This document shows, piece after piece, positions 14,528 to 64,000 of a stretch of DNA of 64,000 bases. Under the pieces are notes generated by a model. That model ran no database searches and was not told where the DNA came from. It worked only from the letters and a program-made list of their open reading frames with translations. The stretch covers positions 468,670-532,669 of the forward strand of contig JABYQU010000023.1 of the NCBI GenBank assembly GCA_022264855.1, given 5' to 3'. The stretch's first letter is position 1. The number at the start of each line of letters is the position of its first letter. The translations under genes were made by a program, and so were the position numbers. Source of the stretch: Lenzites betulinus (Eukaryota > Basidiomycota > Agaricomycetes > Polyporales > Polyporaceae).

Positions 14528-14994
14528 GAGGTCGGTGCCGACGTGGGCAGCGGGAGGGGATCCGCTGTCAAAATGGGGGCCAACGAGAAGAGAAAAGAGC
14601 AGTGAGCCGGCGGGTACACCTTCCGAAGTCTGCTCTGGCTAATAACAGTCCACCGCCTTCCGCTCGGAACGGTCATGGCTGCCTTGCCTTGCACCCGGGT
14701 CCCGTGAATAGCCAGGATCAAGCCAGGATCCCGCCCGTGGCGCTGTGTTTGTTAGTCGCGGGCGCTGTTTCCTACTATAGATACTGATTGGGCCCCATCA
14801 CCCATGCCGCGTTATAACGGATCGTCGGACAGCGAGCGCGCACAGCAACCGGTGTGCATGAACAAGGAGTGTGCAGGGCACGGGGAGACTAGAAGGCTTG
14901 CAGGGTGCATCATTATCGGCGCTATTGATACGTACAGGAGCGCTCGCATGTGAGCATTTTCCCCCTATCCGCGGGCGGCTTCGGCTTCCTACGT
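14528..14994. other. Intergenic region
   Basis: This is the promoter side of DUF6533 copy 3 and the 3' side of the FAD oxidoreductase gene. I see no coding, repeat or RNA feature. Confidence 0.4.
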
Positions 14995-42988: not shown

Positions 42989-43003
42989 TTAGGGTTAGGG
43001 TTA
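42989..43003 (+). repeat. Internal telomere-repeat remnant
   Basis: TTAGGGTTAGGGTTA follows directly after the box array and GTAAGT-rich segment, in the same order and orientation as at the real end. A further GTTAGGGTTAG sits at about 43073. Short length and position suggest the scar of a former chromosome end. Confidence 0.65.
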
Positions 43004-43149
43004 TGAGGACATGCCAGGGGTCACAGGGGTCAGATTATGGGCCAAACCTAACCCCACGGTGCGCACTGTTAGGGTTAGCACTTGCCTTATTGGGACATCA
43101 GTCATAAAATATATTTCGCTACAAGTTAGGTATAGCAGATAATATTTGC

Positions 43150-43830
43150 GTATCATATGACAAGGGGTGTCTCCCGGAGGCTCTGCTAGTATGTAGTACA
43201 TAGCTTCATACGCACCGTGTGTGTACTTGGAGCAGGTGTGTGTATAGAGCATGTCTCCTGGAAACACCCCCTGTGCACGTGTACACACCGTACGTGGCAC
43301 TCGGAGCAGGTGTGTATATGGAGCATGTCTCCCGGAAACACCCCGTGCTCACACACCGGCATAATGCTCTGAGCAGGTGTGTGTGCAGGGGTGCTTCCCG
43401 GAAACACCCCCTGTGCACGTGTACACACTGTACGTAGCACTCGGAGCAGGTGTGTATACAGAGCATGTCTCCCGGAAACACCCCGTGCTCACACACCGGC
43501 ATAATGCTCTGAGCAGGTGTGTGTGCAGGGGTGCTTCCCGGAAACACCCCCTGTGCACGTGTACACACTGTACGTAGCACTCGGAGCAGGTGTGTATACA
43601 GAGCATGTCTCCCGGAAACACCCCGTGCTCACACACCGGCATAATGCTCTGAGCAGGTGTGTGTGCAGGGGTGCTTCCCGGAAACACCCCCTGTGCACGT
43701 GTACACACCATACAAAACTGCCTAATGCTCTGAGCAGGTGCGTGTGCAGGGGTGCTTCCCGGAAGCACCCCCTGGTCATGTATTTGTACTGTGCTCTGAG
43801 CGGGTGTCAGTGTTAAGTTATATGTAAGCA
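43150..43830 (+). repeat. 140-bp tandem repeat with TCCCGGAA palindromes
   Basis: The unit containing CCTGTGCACGTGTACACA recurs at about 43269, 43410, 43550 and 43690, a period of 140 bp. Each unit contains two copies of the odd palindrome TTCCCGGAA or TCTCCCGGAA followed by ACACCCC, plus GAGCAGGTGTGTGT. Open frames on both strands are by-products of the repeat. The block starts with a lone CTCCCGGAGG at about 43171. Confidence 0.8.
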
Positions 43831-43894
43831 GCCTATGTCTCAGTTATGCTCTATTAGAGATTTCTATAAATTGTATACAACCCAAGTTAAACTA

Positions 43895-45164
43895 TTATAT
43901 ATCATTTCCACAAATAGGGCATTCATAAATGTCCTCCGGTTTCCAACCCTGCAACATAGCCAATGCCTCCTGCGGCATCAGCCCAATATCCTTTGCCACA
44001 CCAATATTCTCCAGAAGGTACTCTTGAACGTCATTGGGGCAGCCGTTCTGAGCATCTTCTTCGCGAATCTTGCTGACAATGAGCTCGAATGAGAGCACGT
44101 AGTTGAGGCCTGGCATCCCACGCTGGATGGGAAGTGTGCTGAGCTGCTGCCAAAGCAACCAGTCGAATGGCCCATATTGGACACGGTTTCCGCATCGCAT
44201 TTGAACGGCCTCCTCGACTGTTTGGGGCTGAAGAGGACGGGTATCGCGAGGGAGGGGGAGGGAGACCTCGACAGCATTGGAGCGCTCGCAGCAGGTGGTA
44301 TGGAGCCACTTGTTGCACCGAAAGCACCACCGAAGTATGTCACCCTCAGCTCCCATGGCCGGTAGGCTATACTGGCCATCACAGGTTTCGGTGCACATGC
44401 TGAACACACAGCTCTAAAGTCAATACATATTAGAAATAGATTTGAGCAAATACGGGGGGAAAGAACTCACGAGTGGCAGCTCATAGCGCTCAAGGGTGGG
44501 GTTGTTCATGTTGAAGCTGCGTATGAGAGTCTTGTCACCCCTGGCGAAAAGGGTGACTGCATTGATCACTGGGAAGGAGATGGCAGTGGGGGTCATATTG
44601 ATGACCCGCTCGAGCGAATGGATGCGTTCGACGAATGTGTATGTGTCGTGGGACAGCGATACGAGCTCGTTCTCCCCCTGGGACACAATAAAGTCCCGCC
44701 CGACTTGGTTGGCCATCTCATCAGGGGTAAGCTCCCCATAGGAGAAGTACCAGTGGAGCTTGACAAGCTATGTGAAGTGTAATGTGAGAGATAGCATATT
44801 ACATGTTGTATATGTACTTACCGAACCCAGTTCAGGATGCTTGCACAATGCAGCAATGCGTGCATACATCTTGCGGTCGAACTTGATTGCATCGTCACGT
44901 CCCGACCCGTCAGGGTAAATGGAGACACTGCAAGCAAACTGTTAGCGTCTGTGCACAAATGACAGGCAGAGCCATACTAATCACGACATTTGATGTAGAA
45001 GCTTTCACCAGGTTCTGGGCGACGGCCTAATAATTCAACTTAGAAAATACACCAGCACACGGGCGGGATGAACACTTACACAACAGGCCCTGCACGACTT
45101 CACCAGCACGGAACACATCGCTCCACTCTGTGGCAGAGCGAGGGACAGGTGGAAGGGTAGGCAT
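43895..45164 (-). CDS. BAH-like / PHD-finger protein
   Basis: This is a multi-exon gene of about 340-350 residues. The ATG at 45164 gives MPTLPPVPRSATEWSDVFRA; introns at about 45080-45030 and 44990-44940 lead to YVSIYPDGSGRDDAIKFDRK. The exon from 44768 reads LVKLHWYFSYGELTPDEM, then FIVSQGENELVSLSHDTYTF and FPVINAVTLFARGDKTLIRS. This resembles a BAH domain, a nucleosome- and chromatin-protein-binding fold. The last exon has paired cysteines in PHD order: FSMCTETCDG, ILRWCFRCNKWLHTTCCE and, after an insert, YECPICGND at the stop (43895). PHD fingers usually read histone H3 tails. The BAH call is moderate, the zinc finger good. The gene is AT-richer than the core genes, as are the RecQ-type and 934-residue genes. 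A chromatin-reader role is inferred from the domains. Confidence 0.7.
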
Positions 45165-45546
45165 GGCTAAAGGGGAAAACTGGCAAGGGGAAGAGGGGGA
45201 AGCCAAGGCCAAACAGCTCACATTATATAGTGAAAATCCAGTGGCTATCAGATGATCGGGATCACTGATGGTATCGTGTGGTGATCATGATCACTAAAAC
45301 TCTCATGTGGTCCCTGATATCTATATATCACAATCACAGCACAGATATTTATGAAAATCAGCAGATACCTATGTCTCATAAATAACATTTATATCAAGTT
45401 ACATAATTAAATATACAGCCACGCCTGTCGGCACGCACATGCTGGAACTATGAGGGTTGGCCTAAACTAGTGCATAACGATTACTCCCACTTAATTAATC
45501 ATAGTCAGCAGAGCAACAGGGACTACCACGCATATGAGCATGAACA
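45165..45546. other. AT-rich upstream region of the BAH-like/PHD gene
   Basis: About 380 bp of AT-rich sequence precede the GC-rich repeat array. A TATATAG string lies near 45225 and may serve as the TATA box, about 55 nt upstream of the ATG. Confidence 0.4.
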
Positions 45547-46745
45547 CTATGTCTCCGGGAGACACATGCGAAGCCCCACCAGAGTTTCCCATGGTGCTCG
45601 ATGACTGGGCCGTGTCTCCGGGACATATGTCCGTTCATGAGGGCACCACACACTCATGAGATGGAGTCGCTGCGGTCCGAGGACACATGTGCATCCAGGA
45701 AACATGCCCGCGACGGCCAGAGAGCGGTCGCGAGATCGCGCATGTGTTGCGCCGTTCAAGTTCGAGGAAACAAAGCGCAGGCGTGTCTTCGGGAGACACG
45801 CGGGCGCGAAGGTGCAACAGTGCCCGCGAGACCACGCACTCGTCGCGCCCTCGAGATCGTTCCCGCGAACGCAAACGGCGCGATGCGACGCGGGAACGAT
45901 CTCGAGGGTGTGTCTCCGGGAGAAATGCGGGCGCAAGGGCCAGACATCGCGCACGTGTCGCGTCGTTCGCGTTTGCGGGAATGATGCGCAGCCATGTCTC
46001 CTGGAGACACGCGCGCGCGAGGGAGGGAGAGAGCCTGCGAGGAGATCGCGCCCGTGTCGCGCCGTTCGCGTTCGCAGGAATGATCTCGAGGGCGTGTCTC
46101 CGGGAGACACGCGCGTGCGAGGGCCAGAGAGCGCCCGCGAGATTGCGCACGCGTCGCGACGTTTGCGTTCGCAGGCACGACGGGTTGGCGTGTCTCCGGG
46201 AGACGCGCGCGCGCGAGGGAGAGAGAGAGCCCGCGAGGAGATCGCGCCCGCGTCGCGCCGTTCGCGTTCGCGGGAACGATCTCGAGGGCGTGTCTCCGGG
46301 AGACACGCGCGCGCAAGGGCCAGAGAGCGCGCACTCGAGATCGCGCGCGCGTGGCGACGTTCTCGTTCGCGGGAACGATGGGCTGGCGTGTCTCCGGGAG
46401 ACACGCGCGCGCGAGGGAGAGAGAGAGAGCCCGCGAGGAGATCGCGCCCGCGTCGCGCCGTTCGCGTTCGCGGGAACGATCTCGAGGGCGTGTCTCCGGG
46501 AGACACGCGCGCGCAAGGGCCAGAGAGCGCGCACTCGAGATCGCGCGCGCGTGGCGACGTTCTCGTTCGCGGGAACGATGCGCAGCCGTGTCTCCGGGAG
46601 ACACGCCTGGGCATGGGCCTGAGAGTGCCCGCGAGAGCGCGTCGCGTCCTTGGAGTGCGCCGGTCTGTAGGGGATGTGAGCTTATAGATATGGAATTTCA
46701 TCCTTCGCACGTTGGCGTGCCTCCGGGAGACACGCCGACGTGCTA
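45547..46745. repeat. GC-rich array of GTGTCTCCGGGAGACAC palindromes
   Basis: The palindrome (8-bp arms around one base) or close variants recur about every 100 bp; near-perfect copies start at about 46093, 46289, 46388, 46489 and 46588. Two 100-bp half-units alternate, so 46190-46390 and 46390-46590 are almost identical 200-bp units. Between palindromes are runs such as GATCGCGCCCGCGTCGCGCC and TTCGCGTTCGCGGGAACGAT. The outer units are diverged. GC and CpG content are very high. The long frames on both strands (up to 387 codons) arise from the repeat and are not genes. Confidence 0.85.
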
Positions 46746-48103
46746 GTCACTCCGGCGCCTACCCTCGCGAGATGGGGGCTTGGACACGGGCGCCGTCACA
46801 GCCGTCTTGCGAGTCTGTACACAACACAGATATACGGTACTACTATATTATTTGGAGTGCTTGATATGGCGCTACAGCCGGGAATACAGAAGAAGCTACT
46901 ACATCGTATCAAGGCGCTCGTTAGTCCGTTATGAAGTCACATCTAGGAGGTGCTTGTATTAGCGATCAACGCTCACGCAGGTAATAACGGCCGTCTCACC
47001 CGGTAGCGATGGGCGTACCGCGAAAGCGAGCGATCACGGCAAGGCTGAGCGCGTGCGAGGGGTTCCGGGAGACACGCATGCGCACAACCGCCGCGCACAG
47101 TATTTGACGGCCGCGGGCAGGTCGTCCCGGAGACATGGATAGCGACGAGACTGGACAAGGTCGTGGGGCGCGGTGATGTGCGGGGAGGGCTTCCCGGAGA
47201 CAGCGACGAGGACCAGACTGGTCAGTGTCAGCAACATCAAACAGGCGGATGGTGGACATACCCGAGGACGGCGGACCAGGACGAGATGCCTTGCCATTAT
47301 TCGCGATGGTACACTCAGAGTTCCACGGGCGTTGCTTACCGTTCGCGAATGCTCCGGAGGATGATCGCGATACAAACTGCGTCGGCACTGGGGTTAGTTG
47401 CGCACGAAACATAGGTTAGTTGGTGAATCGTCGTACCGTTCGTTGCCCTCCTCCCATCCCTACACGCACCAAAGTTCCGCGCACAGCGCCGGTGCCCAAT
47501 TCGCTCGAAGGGTAAGTTAGAGCTCTAGCAAGATTAGGATGACGATAAACACGAGTGAGTAGACGTGAACAGATAAACGAGCGTCCAACGTTAAGAGTGC
47601 AAAGGTGCCTGGTGAGAGAGAGCTTGGCATCAGGAGCCGCGAGATTAGAGATTAGAGTTAGGGTTGGAACTCCGCGCCTGGACCGGCTAGTTGACTGGTT
47701 AGTCGTCGTCCGCTTATGGCAATCGTAGTTATTCGCGCGTGCAACTGAAATCAACGCCCATTCACGCCGAAAACCTGCACCTCCCAACGCATTGACGCGA
47801 GCTCACAATATCTAAGATGATTATCGCGACGCTGAAACATGCGCTACCCTCACGTCGGACGACTTATCGGCGGATGGTGGCGGTAGATCGATCGGTCCTT
47901 CGGGCGCAGGGATGGCGGAGGAGCGGGATGCTGACTGGTATGGAGAATTGTACACGCGCGAATGAGTCCCATTATCTAACAATTCTCTAGCGGTCCAATA
48001 GTACTTCCGGTATACTGCTGGACTTATAAAACATGGCCACAAGGTGCGCAGGATCCCCCCGCTCCTCGAAACCCGTTCCCTGCGTCTAACAGCTACACTC
48101 AGA
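46746..48103. other. Spacer with scattered palindrome copies
   Basis: Single diverged copies of the CCGGGAGAC motif lie near 47070, 47132 and 47195 (GTTCCGGGAGACACG, CCCGGAGACATGG, TTCCCGGAGACAGCG). A short AGTTAGGGTTGG string is near 47655. Frames here show no family features. Confidence 0.5.
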
Positions 48104-51100
48104 ATGCCTACCGACCAGTATTTCGAGGCTTTCCTGCATATGGCGGCCTCGACCGATACATCCATGCCCGCGCCATTCTGCTGGCCTGAATGGCGCGAAT
48201 GCATAGCCGATACCGTACCCCCTTGGGCCCTCTCGGCCACCCCGTTGAACAGCGGCATGAGCCAGGATGTAATCGACAAAATAAAGGCCTTCGCACAGGG
48301 TTACTACGCGCTCTCCTCGGCCAAGGACCGCACCGCCTACTGTCAGCGTCGTGGTGCTCATAACAACCTCGCCGGTCGCGACGCGTTCATACGATACCTC
48401 GCTGACAAGTGGTCCGAGTGGGGAATCAACGAAACTGTCGACACATTGCTCAAGGACCACGATATCGACGTTTTTACTATGGCTGAACCTGGGATGGAAA
48501 AGGTACGTGCTGGATTCCTTGGCTATCAGGCATCACTCAAGCCCCCGCAGCTCTACCCTCTAGACCTCTCGCCCGCCGTCGCGCTCTACCGCGAACTCGC
48601 GGTGAGGTTCTTCGGAGACGACGCCTATCAGAACAGTCTCATGGTAAAGGAGCCAGCTACGCGTTTTGTCCGCACCCTGTGTGCCGGGTACTGGAAGAGG
48701 ATGCGCAACAAACTCACCCGCGAGCGCGCGGCCCTTAGGAAAGCGGAACAAACGGTAGAACGGGAGCGCAGCTGTAAGTGCATGCGTCATGGCGGAAATG
48801 CGCGCATACTGATATATCTAAAGCTTTCGAATCGCTGCCCCGTCCTACGGCATCGGCCGGAATGCGGTACATTCGCGCCCTCGAAACTTGGCTCAATCGC
48901 TTGAGCCGGTGGAAGGTCGATCACCTCGGGGACAAACACAGCCACGCCAAGGAAATATTGGAGGGCATACGTGACCAACTGCAAGGCATGCCCACCACCG
49001 CGTCGAAGAGTGAGTTCGCGAGTTTGCATCACAATCTAAACACATCGTAACCTGTTCACAGAACTGCCTGCTGCGCTTGCTGCCGCTCTGGCGACTCTTG
49101 CGACGCAGGAAGAATGCGCGCAGGTGCTGGGCTCGGTCATGGAGTTGATCGCCTGCCACAACCACGACGAGGAAGACCCGATCGTTCGCTCGACGAAGGA
49201 GGGGGACATGAAGGGCTGGAAGGAGGGCGTTGAGGAGTACCAAGCACTCCCCATATCGAAGCTCACTCGCGCGCTCGGCCTGACGAACTCCAACCTCCCT
49301 TTCTTCAACGAGAAGCAGGACGCGATTGGTGAGCTCGATGCATGGTCGGAGGAGGGACTCGCTGCTCTGCGCGTCGAAACCGCCGTACCGCTCGGCCCCA
49401 GGTGGCACCAGTGGGTGGGAATAGTCAAGATCATGGACAACCTGTTCGACAAGAAGAACATTCTCATCATGGACGACGTTGGCGTCGGAAAAACCCTCCA
49501 AGCCGTCGGAGCTATAGCCATGTACGAATACCAACGCCTGCATTACAAGACTCACGGAAAGTATACCGAGCGCTTTGGTGAGTGCTACGTTTACTGGACA
49601 ATTACGAGCGCTGACCCTGAGTTTTTGCCTAGCACGCGGTTCCAAGGAGAAGCTTCAGCTGAAGGCCGACACCCACGTGATCGTCGTTCCACCCGGGCTT
49701 AGCCACCAGTGGCTAATGGAGCTTCATCGCTACCTTCAACACGGCTCATTCAGTGTTCTGCCGTATACGAGCAGCTGCTCCGTTGAAGGTCGACGGGCGT
49801 TCTGGGAGCTCTACGCCTCCGTCCCCAAGCCAGCAATTATCCTCGCAACCAGCACCGTAGGTCTTACGCATTTTTTTCGCACACCGGAGACTCACCCGCT
49901 ACCTATAGGCAGTCAACTCCGATATGGAGGTTTATTTCCAGAAACCGATAAAAGGCATCCGACCCAGTCCGAGCCGATCATGCCCTCCAGGACTTGTCGA
50001 CAACACTCTATTTTCGCCAAATCGGCGCTTCGCTCTGATCGTCATCGACGAAGCGCACTACGCGCGTACGCAGAACAAATTCCGCATTGGGTGCGTGGAG
50101 TTGGCCTCGCTTGGTCGGATGACCATCGCCATGACTGCCACGCCCGTCATGACAACTCCAATGGTCAGTCCCTTTCTCCCGCAACTCGTCAGGTACTGCT
50201 GCTGAAAGCTCCTAGGATATCGTCAACATTGCTCGACTTCTCGAGATCCCTGGCATCATTGACTCAGAGATGCAAGAGTTCCGACGTAGGGTTGAGCGCG
50301 CGCGCCGCGAAGAACGGAAGAAACGCCGCGACGGGAAGGGCGAAGTCCGGCTCGCTCGCTCGGTCGCGCTAGGAAAGTACAGCAAAGCCCCCAATGTTGA
50401 CGATGTCAAGACGGCCAACCGCGAGTGGATCGCTCGTCTGCGCGAACGCTTCGAGGGATACATGATGCGTCGCACAGTGTGCTCGCTGGACAACACCGGC
50501 AACCCGATTTCCGGTCTTCCACCGTGGCTTGAATCATCAATACTTGTCAATCTTACCGACGAGGAGATGGATGTGCAACGGCGCCTGGCAGCTACTCTGG
50601 CAGAGGAAGGCGTGTCCGTGGCTTCCAAAGGAGTTCGGGTAAGTCATCTTGTCTCAGCTCGTGCTAGCGATACATGCAAAGTCTGTGTCCCGAAGACATG
50701 CTTGCTGTTCACGCGTGGAACACGCCAGGGAGCCTGTCTCCGGGAGGCTCGCCTGCGTGGCACGCCCTTATCGTGGATGTCCACGCTCGTCCGCGACGCA
50801 CCCGCCCTTTCCTGTGGGAAGAGCATGTCTCCGGGAGGCTCGCCTGCGTGGCACGCCCATATCGCGGATGTCCACGCTCGTCCGCGACGCACTCGCCCTT
50901 TCCTGTCGGAAGAGCATGTGTCCGGGAGGCTCCTCTGCGTGCGGCGCGCAGGTGACTGCGCGTTTCTACGAGGTGCTCACTTACCGCGGCTGAGAGCGTG
51001 CCTCCGCGAAACACGACATTGGTGCGCCTGGCATTGCGCTACACCAGTTGTGGGAGTGGGAGTGCGGATGGCGGGTCTCCGGGAGACACGTCCATGCTCA

Positions 51101-54100
51101 CTGTGTGATGTGCTCGTATCTACGACACGTCGCCAGCTGCACAGCGTCTGCGCATATACGCCGAGACAAGTGCCATCGACCGACCGGGGCTCCCGCTACC
51201 TTTCTTTAAGTACGTGTCCTGCGGAGCGGCTTTCGATACGTATGTGTTCAGACAAACTTCCTGCGACCCACGCTGTAAGTTCTCAACGGCGAACGTTCCG
51301 CGATCACAGTTTGCAACTCCCAGACACGCAGTGTGGCCACGGCGCGGTGGTTGGCGCGCATGGCGAATCCTTCTTCCTATGCGCGTGCGAGCGTGTCTCC
51401 CGGTGGCCCTCGATCCCGAGAGTACACGTCGGGACGTGCCGATTACTCATGCGGTAATCCCCCACACATGCGAGCGTCCATGACAGATACTTTGGGTTCC
51501 GCGTGCATAGAAACACTCACTGACCATTTCACAGAGCTTTTACCTCAAAATCCGACAAGCACTCCTGCACCCTGGTTTCTCCGGTCTTGCCGGACACCTT
51601 TTCGATAGCGCTGACATGTCGAAACCTTATTCGGAGCATCCGTCGACGAAAATCAACGCGGTCCTTCGGCTTCTCGACTGGCACCTCGAACATGTTTGTC
51701 GCCCCCCTGTTACCCTCAAAAACGACGAGTTGGTGCCTGCATCACCCGAGGCATGGTCATGGGACGCTGCTGGTGAAGAGTATCCGGAAGACAAGATTAT
51801 TGTTTACCTGGCGTTTCCCAGCCTTAATTGGCTGATTATCTCGGTATGTCTATGGCCACAGTCTTTCCTGAAGATCCCTTACGGACTTATTGCAGGCCCT
51901 CGAAGAGCGCTCCATCAAGTTCCAAGAGCTCAATGGGAACATGAACGCCACTCATCGTTCCGCCGCCCTCGCCGAGTTCCGGACAAACCCGGACTGCCAC
52001 GTTCTGTTGCTCTCCGGTGTCGGTATGTGCGGCCTTAATATGGCTTTCGCGAACATCATCATAATCGTCGTACGTTCGGGTCGCTGTCGTCGAAATACAG
52101 TCGTCTAATGCTTATTTTGTCATAGGACAACCTCTGGTCCGCACAAGAGGACCAGCAGCTGATCGGCCGGGTGTCCAGGTTCCCCCAGAAGAAGCCCGTC
52201 ACGATTTACCGCGTTATCGCTCGTCGTACGTCGGATGTTTTCCTCAACAACATCAGTTTCGAGAAGGGTACGCTGCACGAGGAATTCTCCGGGCTCGAGC
52301 CCACTCTGCGTACGTGTAGTCGATCGAACTTGACTGCAGTATACTTATGCTTCGCACAGGTCGTGCATTTGAACCGTCGAGCGGGGACGAAGACTCTGAT
52401 TCTGAGGATTCCACCGATGAAGCTGATCACAACCAAGCGGGGCCCTCGAGAGTCACCGTGACGAAGGCGCCTCGCGAACGGGGCACGACTACCGAGGAGA
52501 CGACGTCAGGTCGCAGCAAGAAGACATCGAGTGCTCGCGGTCGCGCGAAGAAGACCACCACCGCTCGCCGCGCGAGTAAGAAAACATCTGATACACCGTT
52601 GATAGATTTGGCCTCCAAAGACGCATTTCAGGCGGCAGCAAAAGCGAAGGCCCTTACCACACGTGCGAGGAAGACGTCCAAAAAGGTAGCTGTAAAGAGC
52701 GCGCCAACGGTAGAGAGCTCTGACGACGACAATCCGGTCTTCAATGCTACTAGCGGGTCCAGGCAGCCGCAGTCGCCATCGTCTCCCCCGCATGCGCCCC
52801 TTCCGCCTCCGAGTCCGCCTCCCTCGTCGACGTCCCCGGCTCTGCCCCCCTCGTCGACGGCCGCGCATCCGCCTCCGCCCCCCTCTTCGACCCCCCGGCC
52901 TCCACCTCCGTCGTCGACGACCGCGCCTCCGCCTCCGCCTCCCTCGTCGACGGCCGCGCATCCGCCTCCGCCCCCCTCTTCGACCCCCCGGCCTCCACCT
53001 CCGTCGTCGACGACCGCGCCTCCGCCTCCGCCTCCCTCGTCGACGGCCGCGCATCCGCCTCCGCCCCCCTCTTCGACGGCCGCGCAACCGAGTCCGCCTC
53101 CGTCGACGCCCCCGCCTCCGCCTTCCTCGTCGACGACCGCGCATCCGCCTCCGCCTCCCTCGTCGACAACCGCACATCCGCCTCCACCTCCGTCGACGCC
53201 CCGGTCTCCACCTCCGTCGACGCCCCCGCCTCCGACGACCGCGCATCCACCTCCGCCTCCCTCGTCGACGGCCCCGTTTTCGCATTCCCCGTCTACGGCC
53301 GCACATCCGAGTCCGCCTCCTTCGTCGACGCCCCTGACCGCGCATCCGTCAGCGACGCCTCCGACACCGCCTCCCTCGTCGACCACCCCGGCTCGCCCTT
53401 CCTCGCCGCCGTCCCCTCTAGCCTCCCGGATCTCGGCTACACTCGGGGTGGCACACGCGTCCAATGCGTCGCACAGTAACTCACGCGAGGGGTCGATTAT
53501 CTTCCCGACCCCCTCTTCATCTCCTACCACGACCATGTCCGCCAACGCCGCATCGCAGAATGTGTCCTTAAGTGCAAGTGCGGGCGCTGATGCGTCGCGT
53601 GGACAGCGCGACCTCACCGCCTCTCGAAACGACGGCCACGCGTCAGCGATGAACGGAAGTGCCGTGAAAAGCGCGGTCCTCAACACCATACCCGCCAACA
53701 CGACCTCTGGCAGCCCTGGCGGGTCTGTTTCGAAGTCCGGGAACGGAGAATCGCCCTCCGCGCCTGGATTCCACGCGGCCAGCAGGATCCGCGCTGTCTC
53801 TTGCACTCCGCCAGTCGGTTCTAGCCAGCCCACCTCTGAGGCCACCTCTGCCACTTGCGCAGTCAAGGACGACGACGTCCCCGCGGGCTCACGCAACACA
53901 GCAGAGTCTTCCCTGCAAGACACGAAGGTACTCGCGACGCAGATGGGAAAGACCTCTTCGGCCCCAGGGGCATCTTGTAACGAGCATCGGACGCCCCTCT
54001 CGGCTGCTCCCAGAACCATAGCGACAGACAGTCCGACGGTAGGCTTGTCTACATGTTTCTACTCTCATATGTCTAACTCACTATCGCTACAGCCGAATGC

Positions 54101-54710
54101 TCCGATTACCTCCAACGCCACCAGTGGGGATGACCCCACAGCCCACCCCGACACTGCGGACGACACAGCGAGCTCGCGCGACGTTGTTGGGCACCGCGAA
54201 GGGCCCACATATAAATTTGCAGAGGACGCAGACCGGGACGGAGAAGCTGACGAGGACTACGGCACCAACGAGTTCGAAGACGCGTTCCCGCAGTACAACG
54301 CGGACGTCGACACCGAGACCCAGGTAGCAATGCAGGTGGATCCGGTTGCGCACGACGTCGGGCGGGACATCGCATCGGGGCCATCCTCTTCTCAAAGCGG
54401 GACCGCTCGCACGATGGCGTCCGACAAAGGAAAGGAACGCGCAGTTCCGCGCACTCGCGGCAGCACTCACCTCAGCGATACGGAGGACCCCGATGGCCGC
54501 CAACCAAAGCGTCACAAAAGCGCGGGTAATAGCGACTCGGCGCAGCTTCTCGCACAGTACATGCGGCCTGCCACCCGCAATCAGGTCGCTATGCTGGGTT
54601 TAGGACAGAACACGCGCCCTGCCAACCTCGCAGGACTTCCTCCCGCGGGTGGCTCGTCGCGAGGTGGCAAGAGGGGAGGAGCATCTCGCCACCTTAGTAC
54701 TCGCAAATGA
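48104..54710 (+). CDS. SNF2-family DNA-dependent ATPase with proline/serine-rich tail
   Basis: This is a very large protein (well over 1,500 residues) with intact frames. The ATG at 48104 gives MPTDQYFEAFLHMAASTDTS. A helical N-terminal region precedes the SNF2 motor: motif I LIMDDVGVGKTLQAVG, Ia VIVVPPGLSHQWLMEL, II LIVIDEAHYART, III IAMTATPVMTTP. Then come EGYMMRRTV, motif IV KIIVYLAFPSLNWLI, V LLLSGVGMCGLNMAFAN and VI DQQLIGRVSRFPQKKPVTIY. SNF2 proteins move nucleosomes or other DNA-bound proteins. The C-terminal 790 residues are low-complexity, with lysine-rich SKKTSSARGRAKKTT, then proline repeats and an acidic patch, ending SRGGKRGGASRHLSTRK. I count about a dozen introns, one of them 896 nt and filled with repeats, the others short. 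Confidence 0.85.
50639..51534 (+). repeat. Repeat-filled 896-nt intron of the SNF2 gene
   Basis: The donor GTAAGTC (after GGAGTTCGG) and acceptor CATTTCACAG join ...SKGVR to SFYLKIRQ in frame, so this is an intron, many times longer than its neighbours (50-60 nt). It contains a 91-bp tandem repeat (GTCTCCGGGAGG at 50736 and 50827, GTGTCCGGGAGG at 50918) and further diverged copies near 51000, 51074 and 51394. The repeat core is the same palindrome seen in the flanking arrays. Confidence 0.75.
52849..53095 (+). repeat. 31-codon proline-rich repeat inside the SNF2 tail
   Basis: A 93-bp unit starting GACGGCCGCGCATCC recurs at 52856, 52949 and 53042. It encodes TAAHPPPPPSSTPRPPPPSS and similar. 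Shorter degenerate copies continue to about 53400. The near-identity of the units points to recent expansion. Confidence 0.8.
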
Positions 54711-55261
54711 CACTATCCCCGCTAATCGTCTCCGCCTTCCGTTTGTGCAGGACATAGAGTTCTTCTGCTTACCGAATGTACAGTAGACTACTCAAATACA
54801 CGTATCGCACTCATATTATGGTTCTCTCACATGGCACTGTCCCGCAGTCCGACACAGCGCGCGGCTGGATGGCCCAGGTCCCCAACATATATTGATGTTT
54901 CGCCATTAACCGTAACTAATAAACATGTACTTCCTTGGCCAGATGAGAGAGTAACTCTCCCAGTCTGAATTAAAATGCGTGCAGTTGGCTCGGCTTGTCA
55001 CCGGCATACACGGCTCTTATATTTGGATAGCAGTTGCGCCGAACTTTGGGAGTCCGATGTTCATTTCATTGAAGGTGTCGACCCGAGCGATAGCATGGCG
55101 GGCTAATGTACGCAGCCCTCCTGTATGCTGTATCGCGCGATGTTCAGCTCGTTGGCATGACGGTGGAACCGAGATACACCTAGGGACTTGATTGTCAGTA
55201 ACCGCCGACTCGCAGTACGTCCACAAGCGAACTAACACGGGACACATGGAAGTCCTATCGC
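54711..55261. other. Intergenic region
   Basis: This is the 3' flank of the SNF2 gene. No gene or repeat is recognised. Confidence 0.4.
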
Positions 55262-57000
55262 GTCTCGCCTACCCGGTAGGCGTGTGTCCCGGAGTCTCGC
55301 CTGCGCCGTGTGGATAGAGGGATGCAGAACCTGACCGCGGTCGGTATCTCGGAGGTTAGTTTCAGTCTAGAGCATTCGCGTGTTTCCTGGAACCACGTAC
55401 CTGTGTGCAGCCGGCGTTCTGCCACTCCACCCTCAACGGACACCCGCTATCTGTTCGTGTCGACGAACTTGAAGTCCGCTGTCGAGTCATCCAGAACTGT
55501 CTGTATCTGATTAAGCTCCTCGTTAGTCCGAGCTATTAACGCCATCAACTCTTCGAGTACCTCACCCACTACCTTTAAGCGGTCGCGGATGCTCGCCGGA
55601 GTATGAGGGCGCGCTGGGCCGCGTCGCTTGAATGAGCCACCCCGAGTCTCTTCGTTGGCCCACCGAGGAGGACGCCGACAGGGTCAACGTCGTAAGACGT
55701 GCTGGACCGAGTGGCGACGGCGGGCCACCCGGAGTCTCGCTGGCGCCATGTTGATCGCGGTGGGCACTAGCTGACCGTGCGTCCAGACGCCAGTCGCAGA
55801 CGTCCGTGGGGTCCTTCAGTGTGTGGAGCATTCGCGTCTTTCCTGGAAAAACATACCTGTGTGCAGCCTCTGTGCTGTAGTCTGCCGAAGCCTACGAGGC
55901 GGCGCCTAGGGTGTGTCGCGCGGGCGGGCCACCCGGAGTCTCGCCGAGGTTACGTCGAGAGGGACGCCGACACCGTCCACATTTTATGACGCGCTGGGCC
56001 GAGTCGCGACGGCGGGCCACCCGGTGTCTCGCCTGTGCGATGGTGATCGCGGTTGGTATAAGTTGACTGCGCGGGCAGACGGCAAGCGCATTCGCATATT
56101 TCCTGGAATCACGTACCTATGTACGGCCTTATTTCAGTGAATGCAAACTGCCAACGCGTATGATGGCGCGCTCAGTGGTCGTGTCGCGTCGCGTCGCCGG
56201 GCCACCCGGAGTCTCGCCTATGCGATGGTGGTCGCGGTGGGCATTGGTTGACCGCGCGTCCAGACGCCAGTCGCAGACGTCCGTGGGGCGTTCAGTGTGT
56301 GGAGCATTCGCGTCTTTCCTGGAAAAACATACCTGTGTGCAGCCTCTGTGCTGTAGTCTGCCGAAGCCTACGAGGCGGCGCCTAGGGTGTGTCGCGCGGG
56401 CGGGCCACCCGGAGTCTCGCCGAGGTTACGTCGAGAGGGACGCCGACACCGTCCACATTTTATGACGCGCTGGGCCGAGTCGCGACGGCGGGCCACCCGG
56501 TGTCTCGCCTGTGCAATGGTGATCGCGGTTGGTATAAGTTGACCGCGCGGGGCTCCGACAAGCGCATTGCGTATTTCGTGGAAGCACATACCTATGTAGT
56601 CCTGGAGTTCAGAGACTGGGAACCGCCAACGCGTATGATGGCATGCTCGGTGGTTGTGTCGCGTCGCGTCGGCGGGCCACCCGGAGTCTCCCTTGAGCGC
56701 TGTGGACCGCGGTCGGCACAAGTTGATGGCGCGTGCGCATGTCATGCACAGGCCTGAGGGCGTACATTAGATCTGTCACTTAGGGTTAGTTTCCGGAAAG
56801 GCACGTACCTTTGTGCAGCCTGACTTATGTGACTGCAACGCGTATGATAGCGCGCTTGACCGTTTCGCGTTGCCGGGCCACCCGGAGTCTTCATCGAGCA
56901 CTGTTAACTGCAGTGGCCAAAACTTGACTGCTCATATAAGTGCCAAGCATAGGCGTAGCACACTGCTTTGGATCTCAAAATCTATGTATTTTCTGGAAAG
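55262..57000 (+). repeat. Repeat block with two alternating motifs and a 476-bp duplication
   Basis: Motif 1, GGCCACCCGGAGTCTCGCC (also CCCGGTGTCTCGCC), occurs at about 55720, 55925, 56015, 56199, 56402, 56491, 56674 and 56877. Motif 2, TTTCCTGGAA followed by ACATACCTGTGTGCAGCC or similar, occurs at about 55383, 55840, 56099, 56316, 56574, 56795 and 56990. The segment from 55781 repeats almost perfectly from 56258, a period of 476-477 bp. No reading frame is conserved between copies in a way that suggests protein. Confidence 0.8.
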
Positions 57001-57608
57001 AACACTGTGAGAGAGCACACCCGGCCGTGTTGCGTGTACGGGATATTCGTATTTGTCCTTCATCCTGATCAGGTTGCATTAAATATAATTTACACAAGTC
57101 ACATTGGAACAGTTTTTATATAGTGCCACAATAGCAGCAGACCATAGCTACTCACATTACGTGGCAAGCCTTTTTCCTTGTGTCTTACATATCTAGGCTA
57201 TGAACTGCAGCCTAGATGCCTATATGGTTACAATTTCTAATATTATATTGCATAGTGGACCTTTGTTGGCCCGCTCCAAGCTTACATTGATTATTCTTTT
57301 TCTTATTACTACTTAATAAGCATATTTTATCCTCTGCGCAAGATTTTCTTACATATTTACTAATCTTTGTCCTCCTCATAGCTATCAACTTCTCCTTAGA
57401 TTAGATATAATATATTGATATATACTTATAATATTTGAGGTACGAAAATTGTTTTGGTAATTTATTGTCCCCTGATCGATGGCTAATTTGATGATCGTGA
57501 TTTTTGAATTTGATGGATATTGGTGCATCATATGCAAATAGCCATGGGGTATATATACCTGGCAGTGAGCAAAACTGTTCCCCTCCCTTTTCTTCTTCCT
57601 ACCACATC
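57001..57608. other. AT-rich region upstream of the 934-residue gene
   Basis: A sharp drop in GC content follows the repeat block. The region contains TATATATA at 57550-57557, about 55 nt upstream of the ATG at 57609, which I take as the TATA box. The rest is featureless. Confidence 0.45.
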
Positions 57609-60517
57609 ATGGACTATCCCGATGATATCCTCCCTGCCATTCAGCTTGGGCTCCCTGGTCTTCTTGAGAAGGCCCGCACCATGTTACAACAAGGTCACTC
57701 TGATGACTTTGTAACCCTTATGCTTGCAGGCCGTTTATGGGAGGGCGACCTTGTGAAGCGAGTCTTTGTTAACCCTCTTCAGGGAATGTCCTCAGCATCA
57801 TCTTCTGAGTGCACTCTCACTGGCGACTTCGATTCTCTCCTTGGCTTTACTCCACACCTCCCCATTGCTCTTCCACTTTCCATCTACCCTGTTCCAAACT
57901 TTAAGAATACCTTAAAGAAGCCAGTTCACATCAATATCACTGTCACAGTCAATGGAGTAAGGCTCTATATTATAATTTGATATTGACACCTCTAATGAGT
58001 ATTCTATTAAGGTACCCAAGTCAGTTCCAGTTCACAAAATTGCGAATGTGTGCTTCGGGACATTTGGAATACGTTCCCAAGTCCGCGCGTTTTTCCCACA
58101 CCTCCTTGGAGAAGATGGTCCTATTGCCCTATCCCAGGAAGATCTGGCCTTGATCTATGATCAGGGTATTCTACCTGCAGTCGAAACAGTTCTTCCAGAC
58201 CAACGTGCACACTGGCCTCCTTCGTATCAAGCTGCTATGGCTCTCTATCGTGGCAGTAATGGTCAATATCACTTCGGCTCTATCGACATCCCCCCCGACT
58301 ACCTTGAAGAATTCGCTGACACCTTCCGTGCAAATCTGCGAAACTCCCGCCGCCTTGGTGTCCCCTTTTTCCAAATTGAGCTACGGGGTACCAAAGGGAT
58401 GTATTCCTTTCCATTTGGAAACATCGAAGCACGCCAAGATGCTCTGAATCGGATGCTCGATCAACTCAATATGGCGTCGGAGCATGCCCATCTTGATCGT
58501 TGGTATGTGGACGTGGGGATGGAAGTTGTGCGGCCTTATCATGTGGTTCAATGGCTTTCTGGTGCCCATGAACAACTGCTTCAACATGCCTTGTCAACTC
58601 TCCCTGCAAGTAGCATCACCTCACTCCATGAAGGGTCTTTGTTCTCTCGCGATACTGCTGCCCACCTCTTTGATCTATCCGGGTTCCGATGCCATCCAGG
58701 TGCTCGTGGACGTCCCAGCCAGGTCGCTCACATCCAACTCTACACCACTGATAAGACAGTGACATACCAACTTCATCATGGTGCTTTCTCCCTCCATTCC
58801 ACCCCATCGCTTTATCCAGGTGCTATAACCAAGCTACTCAGTGACATCGACATCATCGCGAAGATGTTCACAGAGTGTGCTGGTGCCAATGGCCAGTCTC
58901 AAGATGGAACCGCACGGTTTGAAATCCGGGTTGGTATGGCGAAAGCCATGTCAACATTGAACACGTTTCCTGCCGAACTTCTCCGTGCTAGTGCAATCTG
59001 CATCCCTAATGCAATCTGGTGGTAAGTAATTCAATATCTTGATTATAATAATATTAATCATTTGATTTAGGGATTTCAAGTTCTGTCGTGTTGCTGCGAT
59101 CAACTATGTGCTAGAAGAAATGGCCTCTGATCCACCCAGGTCTCGAGCCCTAGTGCCATCCTTAGCCTTAGGGGCTGTTTTGATCTACATGCTCAATGCG
59201 ACCATCTCTCGTCCTGGAGATTGGGGAGCAGAGCGCGCCCTTGCCGAAGCTTGTGCACTCCTGGTCCCACATGGTGAAGACATTCAAGATCCTGGCACCC
59301 TCGAATTGGAGTACGAGCCTGAAGATATAGAGCCGATTGGAGATCAGCAGGGACTCTATTTCGTTTGCGATATCCTTCGTGACGAAAAAGAAGGCTGGTG
59401 GCGGGTGCCGATTGGTCGGGCGCGACTGGAACTACCCCAGCTGTTCACACTCTACAAGGCTGCCAGTTTGGCTGATATTGAAGGCAACCTAGGAGCAACT
59501 GGTCTTCGCAGGACTGCTAGAGATGCCAATACTACCCGCATTTCAAACCGTCGTGACCGTACTGCCGAGATACAATATCTCAATCCGGATGCGGTGGTTC
59601 CCTTGGGACTTGACCTTGCTGCCTTGAACATCTCTATAGCCCCATCTCTCGAACTCTCTGGACCAGATGTTGCCTTCCACCGCGGTATTCCTGAAGACGA
59701 CCACGATGACATCGGACCAGATACCGATCTCTCTGCCCTCATAGATCGTCTAGTTGCCCAAATGTCTCTGGATATCATTCAGATCTCCCCCAATCTGAAA
59801 AGCCGTTTGGATCCATCCTACACAACCCTATCTATTGATCAACAACATGCTGTCACTATTGATCTCTACAAGTCATTGGTCTTGCCGTTCACTGGAGTTT
59901 GGTTCCGCACCAGTAACAGCAAACACTGGGATCTTCAATTTGATCGCTTCTTCCCTGGCTATGATAAACAACTTGACAAGTTGCAAAACTTCCCCTCCTG
60001 CCGATACTTTCAACTTTGGCTTCGCCTCCGAACGCAAATGAGAAAGCCTGCATTTGAAGCCCTTCGTGCCAAGTTGCGCGTCCCTTTCCGTGACCTTTCC
60101 TGGCTCCCCTATACCGACTCCGATCGGATGTGGGATACCCGCCGACCTACTCAGACTGTCCACTCTTGGACCTACCTATCCAAAAGTCCTGCAGGGGCTC
60201 TTCGTGGGGTCAGGATTGCTATCAATGGTCTCAAACATCCAAGCCCCAAGCCCATCCTAGGTGTGGCTATAGCCGAAGAAGAGGAGGAGGATGATGAAGA
60301 AGATATTCGACACCTGCCTCCACCCCCCAGACAGATTTCAGTATCTCGTCCTTCACCTACCCCAGGCAATATTGGCGCTAGTAACAGTGTGGGGATTCAT
60401 AGCAGTGGTGTACAAGGCAGGTCTGATGCAGGATCATCTAATGTTCGGTCGGAGAACATTGATTGGCAAGCAATGTGGCAAAGTTTGCGTCAAGGGGAGT
60501 TTGAGGAGAATCTCTGA
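57609..60517 (+). CDS. Uncharacterised 934-residue protein
   Basis: I do not recognise this protein. Three exons (57609-57956, 58012-59021, 59071-60517) join cleanly at GGA|GTAAGG...TTAAG and GTG|GTAAGT...TTTAG to give an uninterrupted 934-residue frame. The ATG at 57609 (MDYPDDILPAIQLGLPGLLE) lies below a TATA box. The middle has ANVCFGTFGIRSQVRAFFPH, YHFGSIDIPPDYLEEFADTF and VGMEVVRPYHVVQWLSG. Part three has DFKFCRVAAINYVLEEMASD, FDRFFPGYDKQLDKLQNFPS and CRYFQLWLRLRTQMRKP. The C-terminal 110 residues are low-complexity with an acidic EEEEEDDEED run, closing with DWQAMWQSLRQGEFEENL. No zinc finger, helicase, transposase or signal peptide is visible. It is AT-richer than the core genes. An intact, intron-containing, telomere-proximal gene of this size is probably a member of a subtelomeric family. 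Confidence 0.75.
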
Positions 60518-60642
60518 TCATATACTCTATTACTAGCAGATTAGAAGTATGGACAGCACAATTATATGGTACCCAAAAAGCACTTTATATAGACTGTTTT
60601 AGATTGCAAAACTATATTGTCTTTGTATGTATTTAAATGGAA
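60518..60642. other. 3' flank of the 934-residue gene
   Basis: This is a short AT-rich spacer before the minisatellite. No feature is visible. Confidence 0.4.
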
Positions 60643-60985
60643 GGTTCCGGGAGGCATGCTTGAGTGGGGCATATATGTGTCGTAAATCTGTGTTAGACAT
60701 TTGGAAAAGAGAGGGCTTCCGGGAGGCATGCTTGGGTGGGGCATATATGTGTCGTAAATCTGTGTTAGACATTTGGAAAAGAGAGGGCTTCCGGGAGGCA
60801 TGCTTGGGTGGGGCATATATGTGTCGTAAATCTGTGTTAGACATTTGGAAAAGAGAGGGCTTCCGGGAGGCATGCTTGGGTGGGGCATATATGTGTCGTA
60901 AATCTGTGTTAGACATTTGGAAAAGAGAGGGCTTCCGGGAGGCATGCTTGGGTGGGGCATATATGTGTCGTAAATCTATCCATAT
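60643..60985 (+). repeat. 72-bp minisatellite with TTCCGGGAGGCATGC core
   Basis: The unit start GCTTCCGGGAGGCATGC occurs at 60715, 60787, 60859 and 60931, with a slightly different first copy (GGTTCCGGGAGG) at 60643. The period is exactly 72 bp and the inner copies are identical as far as I can read. Because 72 is a multiple of three and the unit lacks stops in some frames, repetitive frames are open on both strands (132 and 161 codons on -, 126 on +). These are not evidence of genes. Confidence 0.9.
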
Positions 60986-61007
60986 AACCCGGCTTTTACA
61001 ATCATAA

Positions 61008-61135
61008 AAGTGGATCCAAATGGATCCAAGTGCAGATTCAAGGCAGTTTATGGGACAACTGCTTGGACAAACCCATGGATCCAAGGGATTATTCTATAGC
61101 CCTGATTCAGGGCTACAAGATGCACTTGCTTTCGT
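61008..61135 (+). repeat. Truncated copy of the GGATCC repeat
   Basis: GGATCCAAATGGATCCAAG through GGCTACAAGATGCACTTG matches the first 110 bp of the repeat at 34580 and 61875, then stops abruptly at about 61130. It is a solo fragment lying between the minisatellite and the terminal block. Confidence 0.8.
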
Positions 61136-61844: not shown

Positions 61845-62532
61845 ATATAATACTGGAATCTACATGTAGATTCCGGATCCAAATGGATCCAAGCACGGAT
61901 CCAAGGCAGTTTATGGGACAACCGCTTGGACAACCCCATGGATCCAAGGCCTTATTCTATAGCCCTGATTCAGGGCTACAATATGCACTTGGTTTTAGGG
62001 TGATAGCTGCTCTCCCCGTCTCACAACAGCCTTGGATCCGTCGGATCCAAGCGTAACCAAATGGATCCAAGCACGGATCCAAGGCCATTGCTCCACAACC
62101 ACCTGGACAACCCCTTGGATCCAAGGCCTTAGATTATAGCCCTGCTTCAGGGCTATTCAGAAATGTAGCTCTCATGGCTGTGCGATGTTTCCCCGTCCCA
62201 CACTGGCCTTGGATCCGTGCACACCTCCAAATGTCGACTTTTTGCACAGTTCCAAGGGCCATTGCTCCATCACCACAACACCTGAGAGTATGTAAGTAGG
62301 TGATCTAGATTCAGATAAGCTCTGGCTACAGGCCACAACTTTTCCGGAGTGAATCGGTGACCTTCACTGACGGTCCAAGTTACAGAAACACCCCCCCCTT
62401 TCTTTAATAGTCACTTATCTCAATGAGTAGTAGGGCTATTAGTACATAACAAAGTGCTACTAGTTTAGATCTAATAGGCCGACGTTTTGAGATTGTCAGG
62501 TGGCTGTGCTAGTGAAAAAATGCGACAGCCAT
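61845..62532 (+). repeat. GGATCC-rich subtelomeric repeat, terminal copy
   Basis: This corresponds to 34549-35242 throughout, with scattered substitutions and small indels, starting TATCCATATAATACTGGAAT. A perfect 20-bp palindrome, GGAATCTACATGTAGATTCC, lies at about 61859-61878; the internal copy has it with mismatches. The two tandem halves and the TAGCCCTG hairpin are preserved. Confidence 0.88.
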
Positions 62533-62761
62533 CAGTTCATGTTCAGATAAGGCAAGTGGTCATGTGACCCAGGTCTGGCAGACCAAGATCACATGACCCA
62601 TGTCACCTGTGTCACAGTTTACATTATTGACCCCCCCCTAAACTTGTAAGTTAAAAAACTCCGGAACTAATGGGGCTACAAACATGTAACAAAGTGCTAC
62701 TAGTAGGTATCTAATGGGCCTACAAGCTCTGATTATCAGCTAAGCCAGCCAAGACCAAAAA
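62533..62761 (+). repeat. Type A palindrome and CTCCGGAAC box, terminal copy
   Basis: One type A palindrome (CATGTGACCCAGGTCTGGCA... at 62561-62597) is followed directly by the GTAAGTTAAAAAACTCCGGA box (62647). In the internal block the same two landmarks are about 6 kb apart, with the RecQ-type gene between them. Confidence 0.75.
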
Positions 62762-63540
62762 ATGCGAAGCAAAGTGTAGGCCAACTAGTCATAAGCAGTA
62801 AGTAACTGCTAGTAAGCAACTCTGACTGCCAAGTAAGCAAAAATGCGAAGCAAAGTGTGTACTCACCCTGCTAACTACCAGCACTAGAGTCAACTACAAA
62901 GAGTTTATGACTGACTACAACCAAAAAATGCGGACTAGTATGCTACTACTGCTGCTACTAGACCACACTTGACCAACCCTCAGAATATCAATGTCACCCA
63001 GTAAGCCAAAAATGCGACACAAGTGTACTTGTACAACCTGGTGCTAGTATACTTGACTACTAGTGCAAGTCAGTAAGCAAAAAATGCGAACCAAACTACA
63101 ACTATAACCACTACTTGAGCAAACCCAGTGACCACCAAGTAATCATGTCACCCAAAACCTAAAAAATGCGCCACACTAGTCAGACTACCAGCAAATGTGT
63201 ACTCAGATACTGCAGCAAGTAACAGCTACTAGTCAAGTAAGCCAAAAATGCGAAGTCAAGCAGCACTAGCAACTAGTGTCAACCCAGTGTGAGATGCAAC
63301 AAGTGAGTCAACACACTGCTAGCAACCACTACAAAGCACACTAGTAGCTCAGACTACAAGTGACTACTAACACAGTGCTAACAAGTGACAAGTAAGACTA
63401 CCAAGTGTCAAAAAATGCGACCACTTGTGGTGTAGCCAGTGAGTGAGTGAGTGTAAGGGACAAGTAAGCTGTGGGTAAGTAGTGTCAGAGTGTACTAGGT
63501 GAGTAAGTGTAAGTAAGCTTAGGTGTTAAGGGAGTAGTAG
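62762..63540 (+). repeat. Terminal array of AAAAATGCG boxes
   Basis: ATGCG cores lie at 62762, 62843, 62928, 63012, 63084, 63166, 63248 and 63415, so the spacings are 81, 85, 84, 72, 82, 82 and 167. The internal array from 42199 has 80, 81, 84, 72, 81, 79 and 167. The two arrays are duplicates of one ancestral subtelomere. Confidence 0.88.
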
Positions 63541-63838
63541 GTGTGTAGTAGGGCTAAGCTTAGGGAGTTGTAAGGAGTGTTAAGGGAGAGTAAGAGTGAG
63601 TAAGCTTAGGTGTTAAGGGGTTACTAGGGAGTAAGTAGGGGGTAAGGTAAGTTTGTTAAGGAGAGTTACAGAGTGTTAGGGAGTGTAAAGAGGGGTAAGC
63701 TAAGTTTGTTAAGGGGTGTTTGGGTGTTAGGGAGTGTAAAGAGAGGTAAGCTAAGTTTGTTAAGGGGTGTTTGGGTGTTAAGGAGTGTGAAAAGGGAGTT
63801 AAAAGTTTCAAAAAGTAAAAGAGTAAGCTATTAAAGTA
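63541..63838 (+). repeat. Telomere-associated GTAAG/TTAAGGG-rich sequence
   Basis: This is a strongly strand-biased segment (G and T, few C) with words such as GTTAAGGGG, GTGTTAGGGAG and GGTAAGCTAAG. A 51-bp tandem unit is visible (GGTAAGC at 63694 and 63745). It grades into the perfect telomere and looks like degenerate telomere repeats mixed with a short tandem. Confidence 0.75.
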
Positions 63839-64000
63839 TTAGGGTTAGGGTTAGGGTTAGGGTTAGGGTTAGGGTTAGGGTTAGGGTTAGGGTTAGGGTT
63901 AGGGTTAGGGTTAGGGTTAGGGTTAGGGTTAGGGTTAGGGTTAGGGTTAGGGTTAGGGTTAGGGTTAGGGTTAGGGTTAGGGTTAGGGTTAGGGTTAGGG
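63839..64000 (+). repeat. Telomere, 27 perfect TTAGGG units
   Basis: 162 bases of uninterrupted TTAGGG run to the last base of the window. The G-rich strand points right, as it must at a right-hand chromosome end. The array is cut by the window or contig edge, so its true length is unknown. Confidence 0.98.

Follow-up and report, generated by a model that had tools for sequence, protein, structure and literature searches.

An odd palindrome is kept in diverging repeat arrays of a multi-gene element at chromosome ends of Lenzites betulinus

The DNA analysed here, called the window below, is a 64-kb stretch at the end of contig C25 in the genome of the wood-rotting polypore Lenzites betulinus (37.4 Mb in 108 contigs). 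From about 43.0 kb to 61–61.9 kb it carries a multi-gene element whose non-coding gaps, including one intron of an SNF2 gene, are filled by tandem arrays (Table 1); the tandem units described in an initial annotation of the window were reproduced, with lengths of 140, 200, 91, 476 and 72 bp. The significant unit common to the arrays is an odd palindrome of 17–21 bp with a free centre, M1 = GCGTGYYTCCNGGARRCACGC, and many of its copies are perfect 21-bp palindromes. We describe here where M1 occurs, how it behaves in diverged copies of the element, and what might read it.

Table 1. Features of the chromosome-end element and its surroundings (positions in the window)
Feature	Position	Strand	Description
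Element left (centromere-side) end	42989..43014	+	TTAGGGTTAGGGTTAT then GAGGACATGC; 10 instances, 9 different flanks among fetched loci
Array 1	43165..43770	.	140-bp units, 9 M1 copies, 3' side of gene A
Gene A	43895..45164	-	351 aa with introns (splice model); Cys-rich LRWCFRCNKWLHTTCC; M1 absent inside
Array 2	45547..47205	.	Between divergent genes A and B; 15 M1 copies
Gene B	48104..54710	+	SNF2-family helicase; PF00176 E 1.1e-15, PF00271 E 4.6e-12; exon junctions approximate
Gene B intron	50639..51534	+	GTAAGT...CACAG; 7 M1-like copies, three in 91-bp units
Array 3	54993..56692	.	Between genes B and C; 476-bp units, two M1 variants: GCGGGCCACCCGGAGTCTCGC and GCGTCTTTCCTGGAAAAACAT types
Gene C	57609..60517	+	About 935 aa (splice model)
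Array 4	60639..60977	.	After gene C; 72-bp units, five M1-like copies
Flanking subtelomeric block	61878..63838	+	RecQ-less relative of parts of 34.5–43.0 kb; latest possible right edge of element
Telomere	63839..64000	+	(TTAGGG)27

The initial annotation had drawn attention to a shorter core, TCC-S-GGA, in diverse sequence contexts. The sites it listed exist; bases other than S also stand at the centre (C 15, G 15, T 12 and A 2 over 44 contexts whose flanks are dissimilar), and the core is not enriched as such. The window has 39 strict copies of TCCSGGA, 6 in its first 43 kb and 33 from 43,172 onward; two of the 33 (53,424 and 53,736) fall within the SNF2 gene, in its final open frame. None lies at 34–42.9 kb, in agreement with the near-absence noted for the RecQ block. 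In the block at 55–57 kb one copy is strict (55,287), and those at 55.7–56.7 kb break the core (ACC.. or CCTGG). CTCCSGGAG is found at 581 places in the genome versus 640 for its reversed control; the general claim that TCCSGGA is enriched was therefore rejected.

Unlike the core, the form with extended arms is strongly concentrated near contig ends. Exact 17-bp GTGNNTCCNGGANNCAC occurs at 76 places in the genome, 74 of them near seven contig ends (C2, C25, C27, C29, C48, C73 and C88), against 2 for the reversed controls. Copies with a G/C centre, GTGNNTCCGGGANNCAC, make up 66 of these places (65 in the seven ends; control 0) and copies with an A/T centre the other 10 (9 in the seven ends; control 2). 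TTAGGG telomere repeats were seen for some of the contigs, and for the remainder "chromosome end" is inferred. When matches to at least 16 of 21 positions are counted with the centre set to S, the window holds 50 at 42,951–61,870 and 1 at 1–42,950 (reversed control 0 and 0). In the flanking block next to the telomere nothing M1-like reaches 14 of 21 positions, and the element has its right edge somewhere from 61.0 to 61.9 kb. In titles and abstract openings of the listed literature on subtelomeres, palindromes, tandem repeats and basidiomycetes we found no prior description of M1.

Within the element M1 is confined to non-coding DNA. At a threshold of at least 13 of 16 defined positions, with expectations from first-order shuffles, the A-B gap has 15 copies and the 3' side of gene A has 9; the gene B intron and the B-C gap have 6 each, and 4 follow gene C (0.03–0.17 expected per segment); these five segments thus hold 40 copies, versus none in the four coding segments (gene A, two gene B exon stretches and gene C). 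Diverged copies of the element in C27 and C48 have the same layout. Their amino-acid identity to the window is 52–75% by segment for gene B (both copies) and gene C (C27), and the corresponding segments hold 9, 9, 7 and 13 M1 copies in C27 and 9, 9 and 6 in C48, with none in the coding stretches tested.

A sister subfamily of the element (C3, C75 and C88 at 73–86 kb) has no M1 in the stretches fetched. Eight of the nine sister gaps examined contain another palindrome, M3 = GTGCGCACNGTGCGCAC, which like M1 is 17 bp long and has GTG...CAC ends. Matches to M3 number 25, 1, 6 and 7 in four segments of C88 (17, 1, 5 and 4 without overlaps), 0, 10 and 3 in C75 (the 10 becoming 9) and 13 and 4 in C3, versus none in all 19 segments of C25, C27 and C48; none of the 31 segments examined holds both M1 and M3 when 13 or more of 16 positions must match. 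The SNF2 gene is interrupted at one protein position (about residues 761–768 of the query) in the five diverged copies that reach it, and the interruption contains M1 in C25, C27 and C48, and M3 in C88 (6 matches, 5 of them non-overlapping) and C75 (3), where 0.05 is expected in each.

The genes cross this switch unequally. Gene A has 96–97% protein identity, a synonymous divergence (dS) of 0.14–0.20 and a ratio of non-synonymous to synonymous divergence (dN/dS) of 0.09–0.14 over its first 181 codons (the first 545 nt of coding sequence). Gene B is 25–49% identical by segment, and gene C 54% identical over 164 residues (C75) with saturated dS. Judged from these alignments, it is genes B and C whose sequences change together with the motif. 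For gene A, exchange or conversion between the subfamilies is probable, because its dS is 0.14–0.20 between elements whose SNF2 proteins are only 25–49% identical. Since gene A is nearly identical across the switch and genes B and C have diverged, a host factor and gene A are both disfavoured as the reader of the motif.

This bears on the idea that M1 marks sites for a host protein, that is, a transcription, silencing/boundary or telomere-associated factor acting at chromosome ends, which we consider unlikely. Such a protein would account for the 74 of 76 sites near contig ends and for the placement of the arrays in intergenic gaps and one intron. A second odd palindrome, CATCGGCANTGCCGATG (59 places, control 0; 54–63 bp period), is also found near contig ends among the matches listed, and several subtelomeric elements therefore appear to share this style. 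A single host protein would not, however, need different palindromes at matching places in two subfamilies of one genome, and even one contig holds both (C88, with M3 at 73–86 kb and M1 at 93–97 kb); nor is the motif much used outside these ends (2 of 76 places).

The left end of the element is fixed. At 10 instances among the fetched loci, 0–2 TTAGGG units are followed by TTATGAGGACATGCC, and nine different flanks precede them (C25 and C88 share one); the element is therefore mobile or was copied many times. The sequence GGTTATGAGGACATG is found at 11 places in the genome (1 for the control), none of them more than 40 kb from a contig end. The copies in C19 and C32 adjoin sequence that by eye resembles retroelement genes. 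The number of TTAGGG units between the fixed end and the unrelated flanks varies from 0 to 2 (window 42989–43004 and the 10 ends), as if elements had joined to telomeric or broken ends. It had been suggested that the motif was the target site of a repeat-spreading element; an insertion target-site reading is unsupported, since the fixed end meets nine different flanks and the 70 flanking bases, inspected by eye, lack the motif. Array copy number varies among element copies, and in C29 (oriented 12896–15810) the A-B array is broken, relative to the window, by about 2.8 kb of additional sequence.

Replicon iterons resemble arrays of dimer sites in layout, and the copies of M1 might accordingly be used by an initiator or a recombinase for amplification or pairing of the element (as an origin, barrier or exchange site), in a way unrelated to expression. 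The mobile or duplicative character of the element, with its fixed end and nine flanks, and the variable array copy number agree with this. We nevertheless judge it improbable: sites are present in all five non-coding gaps tested, including an intron, when one origin needs fewer; no replication initiator was found among the open reading frames (ORFs) scanned with Pfam; and the spacing of neighbouring sites does not clearly follow the helical repeat (n = 52, R 0.20 at 10.5 bp), so that helical phasing of the sites is unsupported.

The motif is kept where its background differs. We collected 191 sites from nine contig ends and grouped them by flank similarity into 44 dissimilar contexts. Relative entropy in these is 0.65–1.77 bits per position inside the half-motif, 0.12–0.40 in the first six outside bases and at most 0.11 beyond, so that information falls steeply at the palindrome edges; choosing sites by motif score (at least 16 of 20, CC and GG required) raises the inner values, and grouping contexts by flank dissimilarity lowers the outer ones. 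When M1 was masked in 15 arrays from five contig ends and the arrays were compared by sensitive BLAST, none of the 15 pairs formed by the six window arrays aligned, as the description of the arrays as unrelated families had it. Of all 105 pairs, 4 aligned (reversed control 0 of 105), each of them corresponding arrays of different element copies. The A-B array of C48, for example, which is built of 96-bp units, aligns after masking with the window's at about 80%, and that of C27, built of 194-bp units, does not. The entropy edge and the failure of masked window arrays to align together sustain the view that the motif, rather than the repeat, is kept.

Could this be a functionless relic, in which an ancestral palindrome-bearing repeat was duplicated in tandem and its background drifted, or conversion spread it? 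The 4 of 105 corresponding pairs that still align and the frequent exchange of sequence among chromosome ends speak for such a history. We find it very hard to credit, in view of the persistence of the motif where flanks are dissimilar and exons are 52–75% identical in amino acids (for sites chosen at 16 or more of 20) and of its complete absence from the coding segments tested.

The two arms of M1 vary nearly independently. Across the 44 contexts, 328 of 440 cells pair between arms, against 317.5 ± 5.5 when arms are shuffled among contexts (p = 0.035 overall, with p = 0.006 at position 7 only), and at position 6, where T and C prevail, 16 pairs are seen and 18.9 expected (T-G 11, C-A 7). Together with the sharp edges, this supports the earlier suggestion of binding sites for a dimeric protein. 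Two half-sites read by a dimer would fit better than a base-paired hairpin, with a weak pairing excess remaining; we prefer half-sites because arm pairing is near chance and the centre is free. Least probable of all we rate the notion that the palindrome is kept as a structure (a DNA cruciform, or an RNA hairpin feeding small-RNA or processing pathways): perfect 21-bp palindromes are frequent, some arm changes are compensated (GCGTGTCTCC to GGGTGCTTCC, and position 7 above) and other palindrome families in this genome reach 32–33 bp, but pairing barely exceeds permutation and falls short of it at position 6, a one-base loop is unable to close, and Rfam gave for array 1 only sub-threshold mir-147 matches (26–27 bits versus a threshold of 57). 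An RNA hairpin is thus unsupported, given the near-permutation pairing and the sub-threshold Rfam matches.

The genes themselves give few leads. Gene A has 12 matches across the genome and no Pfam family; the PHD likeness of LRWCFRCNKWLHTTCC is by eye only, and a guess from its sequence that the protein is a BAH-PHD reader was dropped for want of Pfam or PDB sequence support. The C-terminal part of the gene B product is of low complexity. In C27 (oriented 6895–7569) a plain translation of the first SNF2 exon runs into an in-frame stop and departs locally in sequence, and this copy may be decaying or have another intron. Gene C has no Pfam family and is related, compared as proteins, to sequences of Trametes pubescens (64%), T. 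sanguinea (50% and 44%), T. elegans (43%) and Exidia (24%); the Trametes proteins include TRAPUB_5363 (T. pubescens), ACG7TL_005168 and ACG7TL_004285 (T. sanguinea) and BD413DRAFT_503657 (T. elegans). In the core of array 2 the spacing is 96–102 bp (200-bp units), with additional scattered copies; six open frames of 220–399 aa are listed there on both strands (45547–46746), and these are probably a by-product of GC-rich, stop-free repeats and not genes.

On balance we lean towards the reading that a homodimeric DNA-binding protein recognises the palindrome sequence-specifically. The chromosome-end element itself would encode this protein, or have close ties to it, and the protein would likely keep the genes of the element active in cis, as VANC does on VANDAL elements of Arabidopsis. 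We infer the binding of M1 by a protein, its dimeric state, its origin in the element and the anti-silencing or activating outcome. With arrays of sites kept in the non-coding segments of the element, such a protein would cover its own element and few other places. Its most likely use would be to hold the element's genes active or accessible, in cis, within silenced chromosome-end chromatin, and the SNF2 remodeller of the element may act together with the recogniser in the manner of VANC on VANDAL; the outcome of protection from silencing is suggested because of the likeness to VANC, the position at chromosome ends and the presence of an SNF2 gene. Tandem duplication would create and renew the arrays, leaving the DNA between sites free to drift, and as the recogniser diverges the sites would change too, giving M1 in one subfamily and M3 in another.

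Several observations weigh against a dedicated dimeric recogniser. Family and structure-sequence searches found no DNA-binding domain in genes A or C, and structure predictions, from the single sequence of the gene C exon at 59066–60517 and for P0001 with P0002, gave no usable fold (mean predicted local distance difference test score 32–33). The arms are not fully independent, as the p values above indicate, and outside the palindrome the strongest information is a CG at -4/-3. The copies in C19 and C32, like the window at 55.7–56.7 kb, carry variants with a changed arm, GGAGTCTCGC. M3 is the noisier motif: GTGCGCRNNNNGCGCAC gives 56 strand matches against 16 for the control, and of the 33 distinct places to which they correspond, 20 belong to sister elements and 13 do not; overlapping matches inflate its C88 counts, two gaps are thin (1 match in A-B of C88, 0 in 3' of A of C75), and in the 3' arrays one arm of its copies matches well and the other poorly. 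Finally, the link between the motif and the divergence of SNF2 and gene C rests on one switch only.

VANDALs are Mutator-like elements. The targets of VANC in Arabidopsis are motifs found in tandem repeats within introns and upstream regions of VANDALs and rare elsewhere (Hosaka et al. 2017, PMC5735166), and VANDAL motif arrays diverge fast while the motif stays, with subfamilies using different motifs (PMC5735166; Sasaki et al. 2023, PMC10398659), as far as the available parts of these papers tell. M1 resembles this in being concentrated in the non-coding DNA of one element family and rare elsewhere (74 of 76; 40 versus 0), in surviving, introns included, as tandem repeat formation makes the arrays diverge, and in having subfamily-specific motifs, M1 versus M3, albeit from one switch and with M3 the noisier. 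It differs in that M1 is an odd palindrome of 17–21 bp and the VANC motif a 9-mer, YAGTATTAY, in the same orientation (so far as the parts available describe it), and in that the host is a fungus, the location is at chromosome ends and the genes are SNF2 and unknowns. Among the element ORFs scanned with Pfam there was no transposase family, and no VANC-like gene was identified. The element thus appears to work like the VANC/VANDAL system and cannot be called a member of it.

The nearest case of a box kept in changing repeats may be the CENP-B box in divergent satellites; in Meloidogyne a 17-bp box is kept in satellites whose units are otherwise 36–74% alike (PMC9673304, in the available part). 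The CENP-B box YTTCGTTGGAARCGGGA differs from the M1 consensus by eye and, in the part of the source available, is not a full palindrome and lies in satellites without a subfamily-specific second box, whereas M1 lies in the gaps of a protein-coding element. Rotifer Terminons are telomere-attached multi-gene units with telomeric repeats at the attachment end (PMC6431247, in the available part), and the element is like them in the 0–2 TTAGGG units that stand before TTATGAGGACATG at 10 ends. A crude [YF]xDD scan of 34–64 kb for a reverse-transcriptase motif gave one match, FGDD in gene B, whose surroundings are not those of a reverse transcriptase; the enzyme could be missing from a non-autonomous copy. 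Unlike Terminons, the window at 42–64 kb has no hammerhead or other ribozyme family in Rfam at E 0.1. In Agaricus, RecQ helicase genes lie in subtelomeres (PMC7473861), and the element shares with these and with Terminons the placing of helicase genes or multi-gene units near chromosome ends; the available main text of that paper contains no word beginning "palindrom".

M1 and M3 are not the only repeated palindromes at contig ends. A scan for near-perfect 20–21 bp palindromes found several repeated families in other contig-end loci, versus 0 odd and 2 even ones in window positions 1–34,000 and none in three 10-kb stretches (L016, L017 and L024). Among the matches listed, CATCGGCANTGCCGATG is in C2, C6, C10, C13, C17, C27, C29, C42, C56, C57, C73 and C75, with all but the C56 places within 41 kb of a contig end (the length of C56 was not seen); in C6 and C10 it is part of a 33-bp palindrome starting TGTCTCTCC. 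C3 (1307–1448, 3556–3795 and 10788–10977; L012, L013) has an even palindrome, TGTCTCGCTGGCGGACGTCCGCCAGCGAGACA, in 52-bp arrays within what by eye seems a gene intron, and a C6/C10 relative of this gene carries, again by eye, a CATCGGCA palindrome in its place. The long palindromes that interrupt these similar open frames of C3 and C6/C10 differ, and both start with TGTCTC and end with GAGACA, as do 40 copies of M1; this suggests a wider class of element-specific codes.

The RecQ-containing and RecQ-less blocks next to the element (35480–35586 and about 41910; 34585–34926 and 61879–62218) contain odd palindromes like TCTTTGACTGNCAGTCAAAGA (50-bp units) and CTTGGATCCGTCGGATCCAAG, the latter with compensated variants CTTGGAACCGTCGGTTCCAAG and CTCGCATCCGACGGATGCGAG in other loci. 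Distant relatives of gene A in C27 (about 482.1 kb, oriented 20100–20423; 27% amino-acid identity) and C13 (about 772.0–772.6 kb; 23%) adjoin arrays of the CATCGGCA/CAACGGCA type, and other palindrome families may therefore own a gene A.

It is possible, and we offer it only tentatively, that several selfish gene blocks coexist at the chromosome ends, and that the non-coding DNA of each bears a private palindrome code for a fast-evolving protein of its own to read. Sister A-type elements would use M1 and M3, and another element type CATCGGCANTGCCGATG and CTGGCGGACGTCCGCCAG. To our knowledge, the escape of mobile elements from silencing by sequence-specific self-recognition has been detailed mainly in one plant system. 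If the proposal is true, VANC self-recognition would have a counterpart in a fungus, L. betulinus, resident at telomeres and with several separate codes in one nucleus. Such a case, with a natural motif switch, several families and a code of 17–21 bp, would allow recognisers and sites to be paired by sequence and tested in vitro. It would also give a reason why subtelomeric repeats that are unrelated in sequence can look alike, and a marker for detecting such elements in other Polyporales.

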